A stretch of 64,000 nt of DNA from Sedimentisphaerales bacterium (lineage in GTDB: Bacteria > Planctomycetota > Phycisphaerae > Sedimentisphaerales > Anaerohalosphaeraceae). A program made the position numbers and the translations under genes. A model generated the notes under the pieces. That model did not search any database. It was not told the DNA's origin and saw nothing but the letters and a program-made list of their open reading frames with translations. Within the stretch, counting starts at the first letter, position 1; each line of letters starts with the position of its first letter. Below, one piece after another: positions 1,882 through 9,949 of the stretch. Location: assembly GCA_016926155.1 (NCBI GenBank), contig JAFGPC010000177.1, positions 1-64,000 of the forward strand. The letters run 5' to 3'.

Positions 1882-1899
1882 AAATCGACTAAGCGATTT
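1882..1899. terminator. Short hairpin between convergent genes
   Basis: AAATCG and CGATTT form a six-base stem around a six-base loop between the convergent gene ends, overlapping the last bases of the minus-strand gene. A T-rich tract follows on the plus strand. It could be a weak bidirectional terminator, but the stem is short and A+T-rich. Confidence 0.3.
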
Positions 1900-4800
1900 A
1901 AATCTTCTTGGTTTTGTCGATCAATTCTAATCGTTTGTCACCTTTTTCTCTCAAGATCCAACCTTTCTCGGCATGGACCTTCTCAATCAGATCCCAGATC
2001 GGCATCGTTCCTGCCGGCAAGTTTACTTTTTCATTTTGGATGGCTGGATCACAGACAACTGTCGGATTGGCCTGTACAGCGGCTGTAATTATTTCGCAGA
2101 TTTCCTGCGCTGTATACACCCGTTTGTCCAATCCAATCCATCGATCAAAAAGATGTACCCCGACCCAGGCGGCTTCCTTGACATCGACCGGTCGGACCGT
2201 TGCATTCACTTCCTGTCCCGACTGCAATGTAACCAGGGCTGCGTTCATGGCCACGGCAGGTCCGGCAAAGACCGCATATTGACCGGGAGCAAAATTCTCA
2301 AACACAAACTCCTTCTGTTGCGCCATGGTATAGAACAGAGACTGCTTTTGCAGCCGACCCAGCCGGGCATCTTCCAGGCTGTAGGCCTTGTCACTGTCCC
2401 AGACCAGCAGACCCATGTTACGGCTGAGCAAGACCATCGTAGGGATTTGCGGATGATTGAATGTAATCTCCGGCATCGTAACAATCAGCCGGGTATCATT
2501 TTGTACAGGTCTGATTTCAACAGTGCGGGCCTGTCCTGCTTCGATATGGATCGAATCCACTCCGCCCCGGTACCGCACAACAGGAGCCCAGATATTCTGC
2601 GGCGTCGGATTGGCGACCAGAGAGACCTGCATCACATCGATACGATAGTCTCCGGTATCCAGAGCCCTAAATGTAAATCCTTCTGACAGGCCCCGTTTTC
2701 GCAGATCGGGCATTTCCATCCATACTGAAGACGCAAAGGACGACATATGCGGATCTTTGCCTATCGGGATAAACCGTTTGCCGTCCAGCCGTTCCAGTCG
2801 ATATACCCAGGTACCCTGTTCGGGTTTCCCGGCTTCATCGACAATCTTTACCTCAAGTACAGCCGCCGGGCGCAACTGAACCTTAACCTCTATATCCGGT
2901 TCATTCCGTGTTAAAACGATCTTTTCTTCATACGATACATACTCCGGATGGGTAACGATCAATGGATGGTATGCAAGCCACTGGTCGTCTTCCACAAACG
3001 CCAGATTCTCCAATACAAAGCACCCTTCCGTATCAGTTCTGCCGGAGGCATGGTAGCCCTTTTCCCGATGCCGGGAATAATTCGAACCGCCCGAATCACC
3101 GAAATTGCCTGTACCCACATACGCCCCGACAATCGGCTGGCCTGTTGCTGCATTCACTATGCGCCCCTGAATCGTACCTCGACTTCGACTTTGATCCGCC
3201 GCAAACATGATCGTTTCCTCAATCGACACGCGTGATACCGGGGGTGTCCACTGTCGGGATCCTCGCGTATCACCGGTCGGAATTATCGCCTGTTCCTCAG
3301 CCTGTAGTGGCCAAGGATTGGTAAACGGCAATGGTTCAACCGTACCGGCAGATATGGAACGAGCTTCGGAATCCGCAGGCAAGGAAAAGTCCCGTGCCAT
3401 TGGATTGACAAAACCCGGATCGACCTCAAGATTCCCCTCTTGCTGTGATGGAATTATCTCTTCAACAACAGCCTGCCCATCTTCTCCCGGCCGGCTCCAT
3501 TCGACATTTCTGTCATTCTGCCAGAACACATTGTTGCTCAAATTTACTGTGCCATTGGAGATACGAGATTCCCCCTGGCCCGCAATATTTCCCAGAGTGA
3601 TACCAACCGGATTATCATAAAAGATGTTCCCCTGTACCAACGGATCGGATGTGCCCAGGATCTCCAAACCGGATCGCTCATTGCCGACAAAGGTATTACC
3701 CTCGATCACATCGCGATTATTGAACCAACAGCTCATTCCCGCCATCTCATTGGTAAAGAATACATTTTCACGAACAACCGCCGCCGTTTGGCCTGAGGCA
3801 TAGATCCCAAATCGTGCGTGATCGAAAAGCAGATTTCCAGTGATCAATGGCGCAGCAGAATCGTACCGAATCCCATGCCAGGCTGAACCGGAGATACGAC
3901 ACCGCCGTACAATCGTCTCATCACACCCACGACCGATTGTTATGCATCGATGATAACAGTTCCGAATATCACAATCGGTGATGAGGACTTTGGAAGAATT
4001 GCTCACGGCGATGCCTGTACCCCACGCTGCTGCTATCAGGCTTTTTTCAATTGTCACATTCGAATTATTTATAATTTGAATCCCGTCTCCCGGTGTTCCA
4101 ACTATAGCACATTCGACAACACTGCCTTTTGCATTATTCAGGTTGACAATGGGTATACGCATGACACGGCCTTCCTCCGCCGAACCCGGCATGGTCAACT
4201 TCAGGTTGCAAATAGCCACATCTTCAGTACCAACAATCGACACAACATTTGTTGTCTGCATCGTTTTAAGCATAGATTCATATTTAGCCCGAATCATCTG
4301 TTGTTCCTGTACAGAGGCCGCCTGTTGTGCTTCCTTCATAGCTTCCTCGATCAGGCTTTTGTATTGTTTGGCTCCATCACTATAATCCATGCGTATAGTC
4401 GTCTTATCCCAACCGGCTCCGATAATCGTCAACGGTTTCTCGATCCGTACAGGACCTTCATATTCGCCCGGATCCAGTTTGAGTACCGATCCAGGGGCAG
4501 TCAAATCAATCACTGTTTGCAGGGATTCACCTGCTTGTACAATGATTGTCTCGCCGTTTGACTCGATACTGTCTGAGGATGCCAGAGCATTCTCTGTTGG
4601 TCCGGTCAGCCAGACAAAGCCCGGCAGCATCAGAACCGCCAGCAACATCACAGGCCAGCTTCGACTCAGACGAATCGGTTCCTGAGTCGAGATCCCAAGC
4701 AGACGCAGTACCCGGACTCGAAGATGACTGCTTGTTTTATTTGGACCTGTTGCCTCCAGCACCAATCGACCGGAAAGAGATTGTAAACTCCGTTCGGCCA

Positions 4801-5725
4801 TATCCACCAGACAGGAGGCATAGGCCGTCCCAGCCGCTCCTCCGGCCAGGACAATATCATCGCAACAATGTTCCCGTTCCACACGGATTCGATGGGAAAT
4901 GAACCACGTAGCCGGATGAAAAAACAGCAGTGCTTCGATTACCCTCTGTATGATATTCCACAATGGATCAAACCGACGAATATGTGCCAGTTCATGAGCC
5001 AGCAGCATTTCAATCTGCTCACCAGTAAGACCCGTTCCAAATGAAACCGGCAGAAGAATCATTGGCCTTAGAATCCCCACCACTGTTGGAACCACTACGT
5101 GCTGACAACAAGCGATTGCAGGGGTAAAGCGGATTTGCAATGCATGCGATTGTCGGATCAGAGCCGACAGAATATTCGGATCGTCCATGGCCAGTGATAT
5201 ACGCTGTAATCGCTTTCCTCCTGCGAGGGCAATTACCAGCCGACCGAACATCGCCATAACTCCCAGCCAGTATATCGCAACGACGTATGGTGCTAAAATC
5301 TGCCAATTCCAAGAACCTTGTTTAATGGGTGAAACATCCAAGGCAGGGGCTTTTGTAGCCTCTATCTTCGAGGACTCTTCAGAGGGCAATCGGGAATCAT
5401 TTTCCATCGCTTCATTACGAGATCCAAGTACTGCTTCCGATTCCTGCAAACCGGTTGATTCACTCAATACCGAAGGATTCGCAGGGATTTGTGTATCATA
5501 GGATCCAGAGTTGTCGTCGAGAAATGCATAAGTACCCATGACACAAAAAACCATGGCCATCAATGAAAACATATAGATGTTATAGCGCACCCGTGAGGAA
5601 CGACCGAGGAACCGGGCAAAGATAACCGCTACAATCGCAACAAGAAGACCCTGCCATATAAAATGCAATAACGCGGCAGCCAGCCGCATACAAAGGGTTG
5701 AATCAAAAAATAGTAGCGGTTCCAT
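1898..5725 (-). CDS. M56 (BlaR1-type) membrane metallopeptidase fused to a beta-helix, a carboxypeptidase-regulatory-like domain and an STN-like tail
   Basis: This 1,275-residue protein begins as an M56 sensor peptidase. Helices lie near residues 15-38, 50-68 and 143-168. The zinc motif HELAH is at 244-248, followed by EREHCCDD at 283-290, and a fourth helix is at about 357-375. The exported part then carries a right-handed parallel beta-helix (about 394-800) that begins like a NosD/pectate-lyase repeat, and a carboxypeptidase-regulatory-like beta-sandwich near 860. The last 90 residues, with CDPAIQNEKVNLPAGTMPIW, resemble the STN fold of secretins. BlaR1 proteins sense a ligand outside and cleave a BlaI-type repressor inside. 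Here the usual penicillin-binding sensor is replaced by beta-helix and sandwich domains, so the ligand is probably a polysaccharide or wall polymer (inference). The gene starts one base inside the blaI stop codon. Confidence 0.9.
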   Translation of the reverse strand: MEPLLFFDSTLCMRLAAALLHFIWQGLLVAIVAVIFARFLGRSSRVRYNIYMFSLMAMVFCVMGTYAFLDDNSGSYDTQIPANPSVLSESTGLQESEAVLGSRNEAMENDSRLPSEESSKIEATKAPALDVSPIKQGSWNWQILAPYVVAIYWLGVMAMFGRLVIALAGGKRLQRISLAMDDPNILSALIRQSHALQIRFTPAIACCQHVVVPTVVGILRPMILLPVSFGTGLTGEQIEMLLAHELAHIRRFDPLWNIIQRVIEALLFFHPATWFISHRIRVEREHCCDDIVLAGGAAGTAYASCLVDMAERSLQSLSGRLVLEATGPNKTSSHLRVRVLRLLGISTQEPIRLSRSWPVMLLAVLMLPGFVWLTGPTENALASSDSIESNGETIIVQAGESLQTVIDLTAPGSVLKLDPGEYEGPVRIEKPLTIIGAGWDKTTIRMDYSDGAKQYKSLIEEAMKEAQQAASVQEQQMIRAKYESMLKTMQTTNVVSIVGTEDVAICNLKLTMPGSAEEGRVMRIPIVNLNNAKGSVVECAIVGTPGDGIQIINNSNVTIEKSLIAAAWGTGIAVSNSSKVLITDCDIRNCYHRCITIGRGCDETIVRRCRISGSAWHGIRYDSAAPLITGNLLFDHARFGIYASGQTAAVVRENVFFTNEMAGMSCWFNNRDVIEGNTFVGNERSGLEILGTSDPLVQGNIFYDNPVGITLGNIAGQGESRISNGTVNLSNNVFWQNDRNVEWSRPGEDGQAVVEEIIPSQQEGNLEVDPGFVNPMARDFSLPADSEARSISAGTVEPLPFTNPWPLQAEEQAIIPTGDTRGSRQWTPPVSRVSIEETIMFAADQSRSRGTIQGRIVNAATGQPIVGAYVGTGNFGDSGGSNYSRHREKGYHASGRTDTEGCFVLENLAFVEDDQWLAYHPLIVTHPEYVSYEEKIVLTRNEPDIEVKVQLRPAAVLEVKIVDEAGKPEQGTWVYRLERLDGKRFIPIGKDPHMSSFASSVWMEMPDLRKRGLSEGFTFRALDTGDYRIDVMQVSLVANPTPQNIWAPVVRYRGGVDSIHIEAGQARTVEIRPVQNDTRLIVTMPEITFNHPQIPTMVLLSRNMGLLVWDSDKAYSLEDARLGRLQKQSLFYTMAQQKEFVFENFAPGQYAVFAGPAVAMNAALVTLQSGQEVNATVRPVDVKEAAWVGVHLFDRWIGLDKRVYTAQEICEIITAAVQANPTVVCDPAIQNEKVNLPAGTMPIWDLIEKVHAEKGWILREKGDKRLELIDKTKKI

Positions 5726-6114
5726 TATTTAACCTCCTTAGTTTTTTCACGGATTAAATTCTTCAATTCCGAAAGTTCGGCGTCGTTAAGATCTTGTGTT
5801 TCCAGCAAATGTACCATCGCCGCCGCTGCTGAACCGTTAAAAACACGATCCACCAGATCCCCCATCATCCCAGTCATCGTGTTCTGCTCGCTCAACAAGG
5901 GTGTATAGACATACCCACGACCTTTCTTGCTTCGTTTCAGATATCCCTTCTCCGTCATGATCCCCATTATTGTCATTACGCTCGTATGTGCCAGATCACG
6001 AACTACTCTTAGGCTGTCTCGCACCTGTCGCACACTGGCTGGTCCTTCTCGCCAGAGAACTTTAAGGATTTCCAGTTCCAACTCCGTCGGATATCTACTG
6101 CTCGAACGTGCCAT
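5725..6114 (-). CDS. blaI: BlaI/MecI-family transcriptional repressor
   Basis: This is a winged-helix repressor of about 129 residues beginning MARSSSRYPTELELEIL, the typical BlaI opening, followed by the DNA-binding domain and a short C-terminal dimerisation region. BlaI dimers bind TACTA/TAGTA palindromes and are inactivated when the partner M56 peptidase is triggered. I chose the ATG at 6,114 because GAGG lies nine bases upstream and family members start here. A longer in-frame start at 6,189 would run through the promoter and operator described next. The gene overlaps the M56 gene by one base (TAATG), so sensor and repressor should be made together and regulate their own synthesis. Confidence 0.9.
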   Translation of the reverse strand: MARSSSRYPTELELEILKVLWREGPASVRQVRDSLRVVRDLAHTSVMTIMGIMTEKGYLKRSKKGRGYVYTPLLSEQNTMTGMMGDLVDRVFNGSAAAAMVHLLETQDLNDAELSELKNLIREKTKEVK

Positions 6115-6144: not shown

Positions 6145-6160
6145 TACTAATTCCTTAGTA
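6145..6160. promoter_or_regulatory. BlaI-type operator 1
   Basis: TACTAA-TTCC-TTAGTA is a perfect inverted repeat with a four-base spacer and TACTA/TAGTA ends, the layout of MecI/BlaI operators. It begins one base downstream of the proposed -10 box of blaI, where a bound dimer would cover the transcription start. Binding is inferred. Confidence 0.7.
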
Positions 6161-6161
6161 A

Positions 6162-6189
6162 ATATTACATCAGCTTCCTTACGTGTCAA
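6162..6189 (-). promoter_or_regulatory. Promoter of the blaI-M56 operon
   Basis: Read on the minus strand, a perfect TTGACA (6,189-6,184) is followed after 16 bases by TAATAT (6,167-6,162). Transcription would start just before blaI. BlaI-type palindromes lie on both sides of this promoter, which supports it. Confidence 0.65.
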
Positions 6190-6195
6190 ATTAAA

Positions 6196-6213
6196 TTACT
6201 AAAAAATTAGTAA
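6196..6213. promoter_or_regulatory. BlaI-type operator 2
   Basis: TTACTAA-AAAA-TTAGTAA is a perfect seven-base inverted repeat with the same core and spacing as operator 1. The two centres are 52 bases apart, about five helical turns. It lies just upstream of the blaI -35 box and about 22 bases upstream of the divergent lacI-type promoter, so BlaI might influence both directions. Confidence 0.7.
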
Positions 6214-6235: not shown

Positions 6236-6264
6236 TTGACACCTGGAATATAGTCTCTTATGAT
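6236..6264 (+). promoter_or_regulatory. Promoter of the LacI-type regulator gene
   Basis: Perfect TTGACA at 6,236-6,241, a 17-base spacer and TATGAT at 6,259-6,264 form a near-consensus sigma-70-type promoter facing the regulator gene at 6,324. Confidence 0.75.
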
Positions 6265-6282
6265 TGCACAAACGATTGTGCA
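6265..6282. promoter_or_regulatory. LacI-family operator, probably autoregulatory
   Basis: TGCACAA-ACGA-TTGTGCA is a seven-base perfect inverted repeat with a central CG, the usual layout for LacI-family sites. It starts directly after the -10 box, so binding would block transcription of the regulator and the overlapping hydrolase gene. The regulator's identity as the binder is inferred from position. Confidence 0.65.
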
Positions 6283-6323
6283 TAAATAGTAAGGCCTTAA
6301 CTATACGCGAGGGTGTTTCCCCA

Positions 6324-7382
6324 ATGGCGAAAAAGACGCTGACAACTCTGCAAACCATAGCCGAGCGTCTGCATCTTTCGGTCTCGACCGTATCACGTGT
6401 TCTTAACGGTAAAAGCAACCAATATCGCATTAGCAGTCGGACACAACAGGCTGTCCGGGATATGGCCTGTCAACTGGATTTCAAACCCAATCAACTGGCC
6501 CGTTCTCTGCGCCTTCGAAAGACACAAACCCTCGGCCTTGTTATCCCGGACATTTCGAATCCCTTTTTTGCACAGATCGCCCGCAGCGTTGAAATTGAGG
6601 CGAGAAGACACCGTTATTCCATCATCCTTTGCGATACGCAGGAATCCACGGAGTTAGAGATTGAGTCAGTCCGTTTATTGCGAAGTCGTGAGGTGGAGGG
6701 CCTGATTCTTCTGCCCGTTGGCCAACAAAGTAAACATTTGACAAACTTGCAGACGGAAGACTTTCCCGTAGTCATTGTAGACCGTTTCCTGCCCGATCTG
6801 GATTTACCTTATGTTGCTTCAAATAATTACCGAGGGGCATACGATGCCGTTTGCTATTTAGTAAATCATAGCCACACCAAAATTGCCTGTCTTCAGGGTC
6901 TGCCGGGGACATCTCCAAATGAACGGCGAGTACGTGGCTATCTTGACGCATTACAGGCACATAATATTGCTCCTGATTTGGATCTCATTCGAGGCGACAG
7001 TTATGGTTCACAAACCGGATATGACCAAACCAGGCAGCTTCTGTCAGAAAAAGTATCGGTTACCGCATTGTTTGCGTTGAGTAATCTCATTGCCCTTGGA
7101 GCAATTCGGGCTCTGGTTGAATTGAACCTGCGAATCGGAGAGGATATCTCAATCCTCTGTTTCGACGACCAACCTTATCTGGCTTATATGGACCCACCGA
7201 TCACAACTGTGGATCAACAAAACACCGAAATGGGTCGTCTTGCCGTTCGGCTTCTGTTTGAGCAATTGGCCGACGAAACAATCGAAAAGAAAAATGTTTT
7301 GCTACCTACCAAATTTATAGAACGAAAATCGGTCAAAAACTTATGTCTGGAAAGGAGAAACAAATGCACTCCAAAACACTGA
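6324..7382 (+). CDS. LacI-family transcriptional regulator
   Basis: The 352-residue protein has an N-terminal LacI helix-turn-helix (about residues 8-28, with the recognition stretch VSTVSRVLNG) and a hinge. The periplasmic-binding-protein-like effector domain starts at LGLVIPDISNPFFAQI. Effectors in this family are normally sugars or nucleosides. I chose the ATG at 6,324, where MAKKTLTTLQTIAERL matches the family start; an earlier in-frame ATG at 6,264 would overlap the promoter and operator. The gene overlaps the downstream hydrolase by 19 bases, so that hydrolase is the most likely target. The ligand may be a product of that enzyme, such as a nucleoside or ADP-ribose derivative (inference). 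Confidence 0.93.
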   Translation: MAKKTLTTLQTIAERLHLSVSTVSRVLNGKSNQYRISSRTQQAVRDMACQLDFKPNQLARSLRLRKTQTLGLVIPDISNPFFAQIARSVEIEARRHRYSIILCDTQESTELEIESVRLLRSREVEGLILLPVGQQSKHLTNLQTEDFPVVIVDRFLPDLDLPYVASNNYRGAYDAVCYLVNHSHTKIACLQGLPGTSPNERRVRGYLDALQAHNIAPDLDLIRGDSYGSQTGYDQTRQLLSEKVSVTALFALSNLIALGAIRALVELNLRIGEDISILCFDDQPYLAYMDPPITTVDQQNTEMGRLAVRLLFEQLADETIEKKNVLLPTKFIERKSVKNLCLERRNKCTPKH

Positions 7383-9949
7383 AACAACGGTTTCTGTTAT
7401 TGATCCTTGGCTTGCTGACTCCTCTGCTTTTTGCTGTGAAAATCCCGGTTATTTACGACTCAGACATTGGAGACGACATTGACGACACCTGGGCATTGGG
7501 ACTGCTTTTGAAATCCCCGGAATACGATGTGAAACTCGTTGTGGGCGATCAGGGTAAAAACGAATATCGTGCCAAATTGTTTGCCAAATTTCTAACCAGG
7601 GCCAGCCGAATGGATATCCCCGTCGGCATCGGTCTGGATGTGAATGCTCATGGCGGCGGACGTCAATCCGAATGGGTTCAAGACTACGACTTAGCTTCCT
7701 ATCCCGGCAGGGTAATCAAAGACGGCGTTCAGGCTATTATCGATACAATCATGAACAGCGAGCAGAAGATCACCCTGATCTGTGTCGGTCCGGTGCCCAA
7801 CATCGCTGAAGCCCTTCGCCGTGAGCCGCGGATCGTCGAAAAAGCCCGTTTTGTCGGAATGCACGGCAGCGTCCGCAAAGGGTACGGTGGAAAGGACAAA
7901 ATTGATCCCGAATACAACGTCCGTGCCGACGCCAAAGCCTGTCAAAAAGTCCTGTCCGCCGATTGGCCTATCACCATCACACCTCTGGACACCTGTGGGC
8001 TGGTTCATCTGACTGGCGACAAGTACAAGAGGGTATTTAATTCCAACGATCCCATCGCCAAAGCAATCATTGAAAACTACCGCATCTGGTCGGAAAACAA
8101 GGAAACGGCTGAGATTCGAAGCAGCACTTTATTTGATACGGTTGCTGTTTATCTCGGATTTGAAACCGAACTGTGCAAGATGGAAATACTTTCTATCCGT
8201 GTAGATGACCAAGGATTTACCCGAATCGATCAACAGGGCAAGAACATGAACGTCGCCACGGAATGGAAGGACATGGGCGCCTTTGAAGATCTTCTCGTCA
8301 CGCGTTTAACTCACAAAGTCAGATCCGCTGCGCAGGCCAATCGCTTCCGTCGCCTGCCGGTCGACGAATACGTTGATAAAATGAAAGGTGGCTGGATCGG
8401 CCAAATGGCCGGGGTCGGCTGGGGCGGACCAACCGAGTTCCGCTGGAGGGGCCAGATTATCCCGGAAGATAAAATGCCCACATGGAAACCGGAAACGATC
8501 AATCAGTTCCATCAGGATGATATTTATGTGGAAATGACCTTTCTGCGTACACTCGAAATGCATGGTATGGACGTTTCCATCCGCCAAGCCGGGATAGATT
8601 TCGCCAATAGCGGATATCCTCTCTGGCATGCTAACAGAGCAGGTCGTGACAATCTCCGAAATGGCATCGCTCCTCCGGATTCCGGTCACCCTCAGTTCAA
8701 CAAGCACGCTGATGACATAGATTACCAGATCGAGGCTGATTATTCCGGCCTGATCGCACCGGGTTTGCCCAATGTCGCTATTGAACTGGGGGAAATCTTC
8801 GGCCGGTTAATGAACTATGGTGATGGTCTTTATGGTGGACAGTTTGTCGGTGGAATGTACGCCGAAGCGTTTTTCGAAGATAATCCGCTCAAGATCGTGC
8901 TGGCCGGCCTGAAATGCATCCCCGAAAAAAGCCAGTATTCCGAATGTATTCGAGATGTATTGACCTGGTATAAGAAATATCCCGACGACTGGCAGAAAAC
9001 CTGGCAGCTTGTCGAGGCCAAGTACCAGGATAATCCGGACTACCGGCGTGCTTCCTGTGACAAGGGGGATTTCAACATCGACGCCAAGATAAATGGGGCT
9101 TATATTGTCATGGGTTTGCTCTATGGCCAAGGAGATATGGATAAAACCATCGCCATTTCCACACGCTGCGGGCAGGATTCCGACTGTAATCCCGCCAATT
9201 CGGGAGGTATTTTAGGAACTACAATTGGTTTTAATAAACTGCCCGACAAGTTCAAATCCGCTCTGAATCCCGAAGGTAAATTCAGCCATACAACCTATAA
9301 TTTCCCAACCTTGATTAAAGTCAACGAAAAACTGGTTCGCGAATCGGTTCTGCGCCGGGGTGGAAAAATTATTAAAAATGATCAGGGCAATGAAATCTTC
9401 CTCATCCCAACTGAAGAACCAAAACCCAGTCAATTTGAGCAGTGCTGGGAGTCCGGCCCAATTGCCAACAGCCGATTCACAGAAGAAGAAATGAAACAGA
9501 TTACTGCCGTCGCTGGCATAGACCTGTCCAAGGCCCTGGCCCAATTTGCACCCGGCTGGAAGGCTTCCCGCTGCGGTGCCGATATGAATCCCGGTTTCTA
9601 CGAAACGTTACATGGGAAAAAGAATGTTCTGATGACCCATCCTCTCGATCAGCAGACCGGCTGTATCCTGCAGCAGAAGATCAAACTGCCGACAGGCAAG
9701 AAATCCATCCTGCAACTGACCGTGGGTAACGATCCCCGCGGCGATTGGGACCTGATCGTCAAGGCCGATAATCAGGAACGATTCAAAAAGCTCATAGGTC
9801 CCCAGACCACAAAAAACGGCTGGCTCGATATTCACATTGACCTGAGCGATCTGGCGGGCAAAGAAGTTAATCTGCAACTGATTAATCAGGCCAACGGCTG
9901 GGCGTATGAAGCGGGGCTCTGGGCGAACATCGATGTAAAAAGCAACTAA
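7364..9949 (+). CDS. Secreted fusion of inosine-uridine nucleoside hydrolase and ADP-ribosylglycohydrolase
   Basis: The 861-residue product has a signal peptide (about 1-22). A nucleoside hydrolase domain follows, whose calcium-binding Asp cluster reads DSDIGDDIDD near residue 28. From about residue 330 comes an ADP-ribosylglycohydrolase domain: MKGGWIGQMAGVGWGG, then the metal-binding HQDDIYVE and CGQDSDCNPANSGG near 600. The last 130 residues look like a galactose-binding-type beta-sandwich. Both catalytic domains hydrolyse N-ribosyl bonds, so the protein may strip ribosylated compounds outside the cytoplasm. The start at 7,364 has AAAGGAG seven bases upstream; an in-frame ATG at 7,343 has no such site. 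The substrate is unknown, because secreted relatives are often misannotated and sometimes lie in glycan-degradation loci. Confidence 0.88.
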   Translation: MHSKTLKQRFLLLILGLLTPLLFAVKIPVIYDSDIGDDIDDTWALGLLLKSPEYDVKLVVGDQGKNEYRAKLFAKFLTRASRMDIPVGIGLDVNAHGGGRQSEWVQDYDLASYPGRVIKDGVQAIIDTIMNSEQKITLICVGPVPNIAEALRREPRIVEKARFVGMHGSVRKGYGGKDKIDPEYNVRADAKACQKVLSADWPITITPLDTCGLVHLTGDKYKRVFNSNDPIAKAIIENYRIWSENKETAEIRSSTLFDTVAVYLGFETELCKMEILSIRVDDQGFTRIDQQGKNMNVATEWKDMGAFEDLLVTRLTHKVRSAAQANRFRRLPVDEYVDKMKGGWIGQMAGVGWGGPTEFRWRGQIIPEDKMPTWKPETINQFHQDDIYVEMTFLRTLEMHGMDVSIRQAGIDFANSGYPLWHANRAGRDNLRNGIAPPDSGHPQFNKHADDIDYQIEADYSGLIAPGLPNVAIELGEIFGRLMNYGDGLYGGQFVGGMYAEAFFEDNPLKIVLAGLKCIPEKSQYSECIRDVLTWYKKYPDDWQKTWQLVEAKYQDNPDYRRASCDKGDFNIDAKINGAYIVMGLLYGQGDMDKTIAISTRCGQDSDCNPANSGGILGTTIGFNKLPDKFKSALNPEGKFSHTTYNFPTLIKVNEKLVRESVLRRGGKIIKNDQGNEIFLIPTEEPKPSQFEQCWESGPIANSRFTEEEMKQITAVAGIDLSKALAQFAPGWKASRCGADMNPGFYETLHGKKNVLMTHPLDQQTGCILQQKIKLPTGKKSILQLTVGNDPRGDWDLIVKADNQERFKKLIGPQTTKNGWLDIHIDLSDLAGKEVNLQLINQANGWAYEAGLWANIDVKSN

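Follow-up and report, generated by a model that had tools for sequence, protein, structure and literature searches.

A candidate BlaR1/BlaI-type signalling unit with a beta-helix in the sensor position in a Sedimentisphaerales bacterium

The blaI-M56 operon and its putative operators

The window, i.e. the whole stretch of 64,000 nucleotides analysed here, contains a two-gene operon in which a repressor gene of the BlaI/MecI type is followed by the gene of a BlaR1-like M56 peptidase with an unusually composed C-terminal part. The features are listed below in the direction of transcription.

6197..6212, no strand assigned: distal putative BlaI operator TACTAAAAAATTAGTA, just upstream of the blaI -35
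6162..6189, minus strand: predicted blaI promoter, TTGACA (6184-6189), 16 bp, TAATAT (6162-6167), matched by eye
6145..6160, no strand assigned: proximal putative BlaI operator TACTAATTCCTTAGTA, just downstream of the blaI -10
5725..6114, minus strand: blaI, BlaI/MecI-type winged-helix repressor, 129 aa (PF03965, E 1.9e-31)
1898..5725, minus strand: BlaR1-like M56 receptor gene, 1275 aa
4586..5725, minus strand: residues 1-380, M56 membrane peptidase (Pfam, alignment to BlaR1)
3221..4549, minus strand: residues 393-835, right-handed parallel beta-helix (Pfam, AlphaFold model, fold match, conservation)
2174..3190, minus strand: residues 846-1184, beta-sandwich region with a carboxypeptidase-regulatory-like domain first (Pfam, all-beta model)
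1901..2158, minus strand: residues 1190-1275, STN/secretin-N0-like terminal domain (predicted fold)

An initial sequence-only reading had placed a HELAH-type M56 peptidase with an adjacent BlaI at this position, and both assignments are borne out, as is the open reading frame itself. The M56 family (PF05569) matches residues 131-315 with an E value of 2.7e-31 (109 bits against a cut-off of 31). HELAH occupies residues 244-248 and is followed by E285, D289 and R338. Among 14 aligned M56 proteins, H244, E245, H248, E285, D289 and R338 do not vary; they correspond to H201/E202/H205, E242, D246 and R294 of BlaR1, the roles of which have been described (PMC9834060), making up the complete set of BlaR1 catalytic residues. 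Membrane-like segments are found at about residues 18-36, 50-68, 143-166 and 359-377. With four such segments, the approximately 895 residues that follow (381-1275) should be located outside, as in BlaR1, giving a predicted receptor with a four-helix anchor and a long outer part, slightly longer than the roughly 870 extracellular residues of the sequence-only reading.

The likeness to the BlaR1/BlaI systems of Staphylococcus aureus and Bacillus licheniformis (MEROPS M56; PMC9834060, PMC3356374) comprises the zinc site with its helper residues, the surrounding helices, the predicted extracellular location of the C-terminal part, the neighbouring BlaI/MecI-type repressor and the promoter dyads. 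Compared with BlaR1, the outer part is longer by a factor of about three, and the operon lacks a beta-lactamase gene. The NCBIfam model blaR1_generic reaches only 80.5 bits against a cut-off of 400 and covers residues 35-368 alone. Pfam detects no penicillin-binding or class-D-beta-lactamase-like sensor domain in the receptor and finds a beta-helix in its place, on which grounds we rejected a beta-lactam sensor. A further difference concerns self-cleavage, which in BlaR1 takes place at a Ser-Phe bond before the last helix (P1' residue F284) and is mitigated by the F284A substitution. The receptor has an alanine (A325) at the aligned P1' position, hence self-cleavage may be absent.

The repressor matches MecI and BlaI structures in the PDB (1okr, 1sd4) over nearly its whole length. 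Its stop codon overlaps the M56 start as TAATG, preceded by AGGAGG. Two perfect TACTAA-N4-TTAGTA dyads, 52 bp apart from centre to centre, enclose the blaI promoter and are the sole copies in the 5.0 Mb genome even when one mismatch is allowed, compared with 36 for the reversed control pattern, although part of this gap could stem from a general avoidance of TAG/CTA triplets. The same dyad and promoter plan (TACTAATTATTTAGTA, TTGACA-17-TATTAT, TACTAATGAATTAATA) is present in the relative G007, with a BlaI 64% and an M56 protein 47% identical to those of the window, and upstream of blaI in L036 the layout is judged by eye to be the same. Among the 98 genomes related to that of the window, a sister dyad, TACGAA-N4-TTCGTA, marks blaI-M56 promoters across the order; it occurs at 28 places in 24 genomes of relatives, at 21 of these places (18 genomes) about 450-650 bp before the M56 start by count from coordinates, that is, before blaI. 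Position around the promoter, uniqueness in the genome, the layout kept in G007 and the sister dyad before blaI together indicate that the dyads are very likely BlaI operators, as the sequence-only reading had supposed.

With no second target operator elsewhere in its own genome at up to one mismatch, a larger regulon was rejected, and judged from the genome sequence the blaI-M56 unit most likely controls chiefly itself. Extra dyad sites in relatives were likewise set aside: the additional exact site of G007 is inside a gene, and the ORFs surrounding those of G091 and G017 include no BlaI-M56 unit. Possession of its own dyad by the window BlaI may insulate paralogues.

The beta-helix module

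Pfam Beta_helix matches residues 601-738 with an E value of 2.3e-25, and the NosD family is matched as well. An AlphaFold model of residues 385-1275, built from 17 aligned rows, has a mean pLDDT of 86.7 and a pTM of 0.54, indicating that the single domains are confidently predicted and their mutual arrangement is not. Within the beta-helix, pLDDT is mostly 80-98. The best fold match is the mannuronan epimerase AlgE6 (Z 34.1, rmsd 2.7 over 317 residues), followed by AlgE4, PL6 lyases, NosD (Z about 31), AlgG and phage tailspikes; most of these are carbohydrate-active or carbohydrate-binding proteins, and most are enzymes. Modelling thereby substantiates the pectate-lyase-like beta-helix that had been proposed for the sensor position. 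Relative to AlgE4, AlgE6 and AlgG (mannuronan C5-epimerases) and the PL6 lyases, with which the right-handed beta-helix is shared by fold match, identity amounts to 13-18% and the module is fused to a membrane peptidase. A fold common among sugar enzymes is no proof of sugar binding; the score of NosD, which matures a copper site, is nearly as high. Unlike NosD, which belongs to the NosDFY transporter, the beta-helix of the window is part of a receptor, and the operon has no NosF/NosY partner.

Across 21 beta-helices from all contexts, R588, W616, H617, G618, R620, Y621, D622 and D672 are invariant where aligned. The groups of this polar patch follow one another at intervals of about 22-28 residues, as they would on neighbouring turns of a beta-helix, and this spacing suggests a conserved groove kept for binding or catalysis. 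Taken with the model, the outer part of the receptor possibly binds a glycan or an envelope component.

Recurrence and exchange of outer modules

We scanned the named genomes, nearly all of them metagenome bins, with the beta-helix alignment alone, without asking for M56. This returned 20 loci in Phycisphaerae/Sedimentisphaerales, Pirellulales, other Planctomycetota, Verrucomicrobiota and one bin named Chloroflexi, 12 of which carry the beta-helix on an M56 protein. Ten of these M56/beta-helix homologues have upstream DNA, and each of the ten is immediately preceded by a BlaI gene; the contigs of the other two start too late. The order BlaI, M56, beta-helix, which the sequence-only reading had proposed to look for, is therefore found again in Planctomycetota, Verrucomicrobiota and the "Chloroflexi" bin. 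In most cases the beta-helix directly follows the M56 part; L133 and L136, each about 3000 residues long, have it at their far end. The genes downstream of M56 were compared by eye from the ORFs: none recurs among the homologues, and a conserved target gene at this position was rejected.

At the remaining loci the beta-helix is on proteins that lack M56, several of which have a signal-peptide-like start. Altogether, modules of the receptor occur as separate, presumably secreted proteins at six loci (L138, L142, L120, L137, L116 and L037). L149:5996-11332 encodes a 1778-aa Ser/Thr protein kinase (Pkinase, 3e-50) with the same beta-helix at its C-terminus, located past membrane-like segments, where an exchangeable outer sensor would be expected.

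Mapping the beta-helix label onto a tree of 33 M56 domains takes nine changes, of which well-supported branches force seven; the label clusters no more than shuffled labels do, some rows being long-branched. By this phylogeny, the beta-helix is a mobile module, gained or lost by M56 lineages no fewer than seven times. L130 and L134 bear closely related beta-helices on distant M56 parts. The M56 domain of the window is sister to that of L036, also its closest BlaI/M56 relative, and the tail of L036 is unrelated. Since the closest BlaI/M56 pair has another tail and the same beta-helix is found on distant M56 proteins, the tail was not inherited together with its own blaI.

The outer parts of 21 other M56 proteins of the order are varied, with CarboxypepD_reg in nine, secretin in five, and TPR, LRR, HEAT, redoxin, LysM and other families; a penicillin-binding match is absent from all 21 among the families listed. 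Going by these domain assignments, the pair of the window is not unique: the order has many BlaI-M56 pairs, and their tails vary. M56 receptors with a secretin (PF00263, up to 4e-42) are seen at L040:758-6613 in the same genome, which additionally has LysM and Dioxygenase_C, and at L043, L046, L049 and L052. In the giant M56 protein at L036:7084-15933, near-identical linkers (SDTLNSRSEEK and variants, four times) separate the outer modules, as if cassettes had been added by recombination.

These observations are best explained by a two-gene, BlaR1/BlaI-type proteolytic signalling unit with an exchanged sensor, to which we assign a probability of about 60%. The main rival takes the outer part to be an effector: a beta-helix protein, tethered to the membrane or released, that acts as a glycan lyase, epimerase or binder, with BlaI setting its dose and the M56 peptidase needed for its release. 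The genome has no such operators besides those of the operon itself, so the receptor is the only evident output; the occurrence of the same modules as secreted proteins, the likeness of the invariant patch to an active or binding site and the predominance of enzymes among the fold matches point the same way. The great diversity of the modules joined to M56 in the order, however, fits sensing better than a single enzymatic role, and the beta-helix is also found on a kinase. On balance, we consider an effector role unlikely.

Terminal modules and proposed signalling

The carboxypeptidase-regulatory-like sandwich described in the sequence-only reading is borne out by an all-beta model and by a CarboxypepD_reg match (residues 851-943, E 1.3e-4), which is below the family cut-off. 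In the homologue L116 this family is matched with an E value of 1.3e-13. Among solved structures, no sequence relative of the sandwich region was found.

The last 106 residues (1170-1275), modelled alone, reach a pLDDT of 80. In VIA-align the top rows are the secretin N0 domains of EscC (Z 9.4) and PilQ (Z 9.0-9.2), and PupR/FecR-like anti-sigma C-terminal domains and FpvA/FecA signalling domains are also similar. The match is weak by Foldseek (E 0.02 at best), phage baseplate proteins reach Z 7-8 in VIA-align, and none of seven ends scanned matched Pfam STN at E values up to 1. Given the missing Pfam match and the unrelated rows at Z 7-8, we call the end STN/N0-like only, its predicted fold pointing to a small domain of this kind. 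The earlier label of a secretin-like tail is narrowed accordingly, a secretin in this receptor being rejected. In predicted fold the last ~85 residues resemble the STN/N0 domains found in TonB receptors, secretins and FecR/PupR regulators, but the protein has neither a Pfam STN match nor a secretin or TonB barrel. Homologous ends are found in L111, L116, L118, L037 and L039. Together with the sandwich, the end is situated near the terminus of the 4347-residue M56 protein L111 and forms free proteins with a signal-peptide-like start in L116 and L037; no other protein was found in which these modules and the beta-helix are joined as in the window.

The resemblance to PupR/FecR-like and FpvA/FecA domains would fit an end that takes its signal from an outer-membrane transducer, as in FecR/PupR, with the beta-helix as a mere spacer or scaffold. 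This we hold to be rather improbable, as none of the other M56/beta-helix proteins found has such an end, the polar patch of the beta-helix does not vary, the Foldseek E values are weak, and secretin N0 domains match equally well. Least probable of all is a fortuitous fusion with no signalling role: the wholly different tail of L036 and the great variation of tails in the order would agree with it, but one beta-helix family repeatedly joined to M56 beside blaI, in at least two phyla and at 12 of 20 loci, is unexpected if random, and the patch is conserved after fusion.

For the exchanged-sensor unit, we envisage the following sequence of events. At rest, a BlaI dimer would occupy the two dyads around its own promoter and keep blaI-m56 expression low. 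The M56 receptor would be held by its four-helix anchor, its zinc site facing the cytoplasm and ~895 residues lying outside. The conserved groove of the beta-helix would take up a ligand, probably a glycan or envelope component, and the sandwich with the STN-like end may tether the receptor or contact an outer-membrane partner. The resulting change would be passed through the last helix to the peptidase, which would then cleave the dimer region of BlaI at H102/L103, equivalent to N101/F102 of S. aureus BlaI, leading to derepression of the operon. Such a system consists of two proteins, BlaI and M56, in place of the one-component system originally suggested.

To our knowledge, BlaR1 is known almost only as a trigger of beta-lactam resistance. 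The repeated swap of sensors in at least two bacterial phyla indicates that BlaR1-type receptors probably sense far more than antibiotics. More tentatively, and with less confidence than for the signalling unit itself, we propose that the BlaI-M56 pair of Planctomycetota and Verrucomicrobiota could be a general receptor chassis that takes its outer modules from secreted proteins, the beta-helix version being a proteolysis-coupled glycan receptor. If true, the chassis would stand as a signalling class of its own alongside two-component systems, hybrid sensors and sigma/anti-sigma pairs. The protease/repressor switch appears here as a receptor design of general use, with exchangeable outer modules and operators readable from sequence, which makes the ligands, and the signalling of unrelated sensors across the membrane to one protease, directly testable. 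We found no description of M56/BlaI receptors with other exchangeable sensors in the open-licence articles searched.

Two neighbouring regions were also noted. Convergent with the receptor gene, a plus-strand ORF of 286 aa (1020-1880) has one N-terminal hydrophobic stretch and no Pfam match. On the other side (6264-9949, plus strand), Pfam identifies a LacI-type regulator and, after it, a protein of 868 aa in which nucleoside hydrolase and ADP-ribosylglycohydrolase domains are fused; the regulator has its own dyad, TGCACAATCGTTTGTGCA (6265-6282), and a TTGACA-17-TATGAT promoter.
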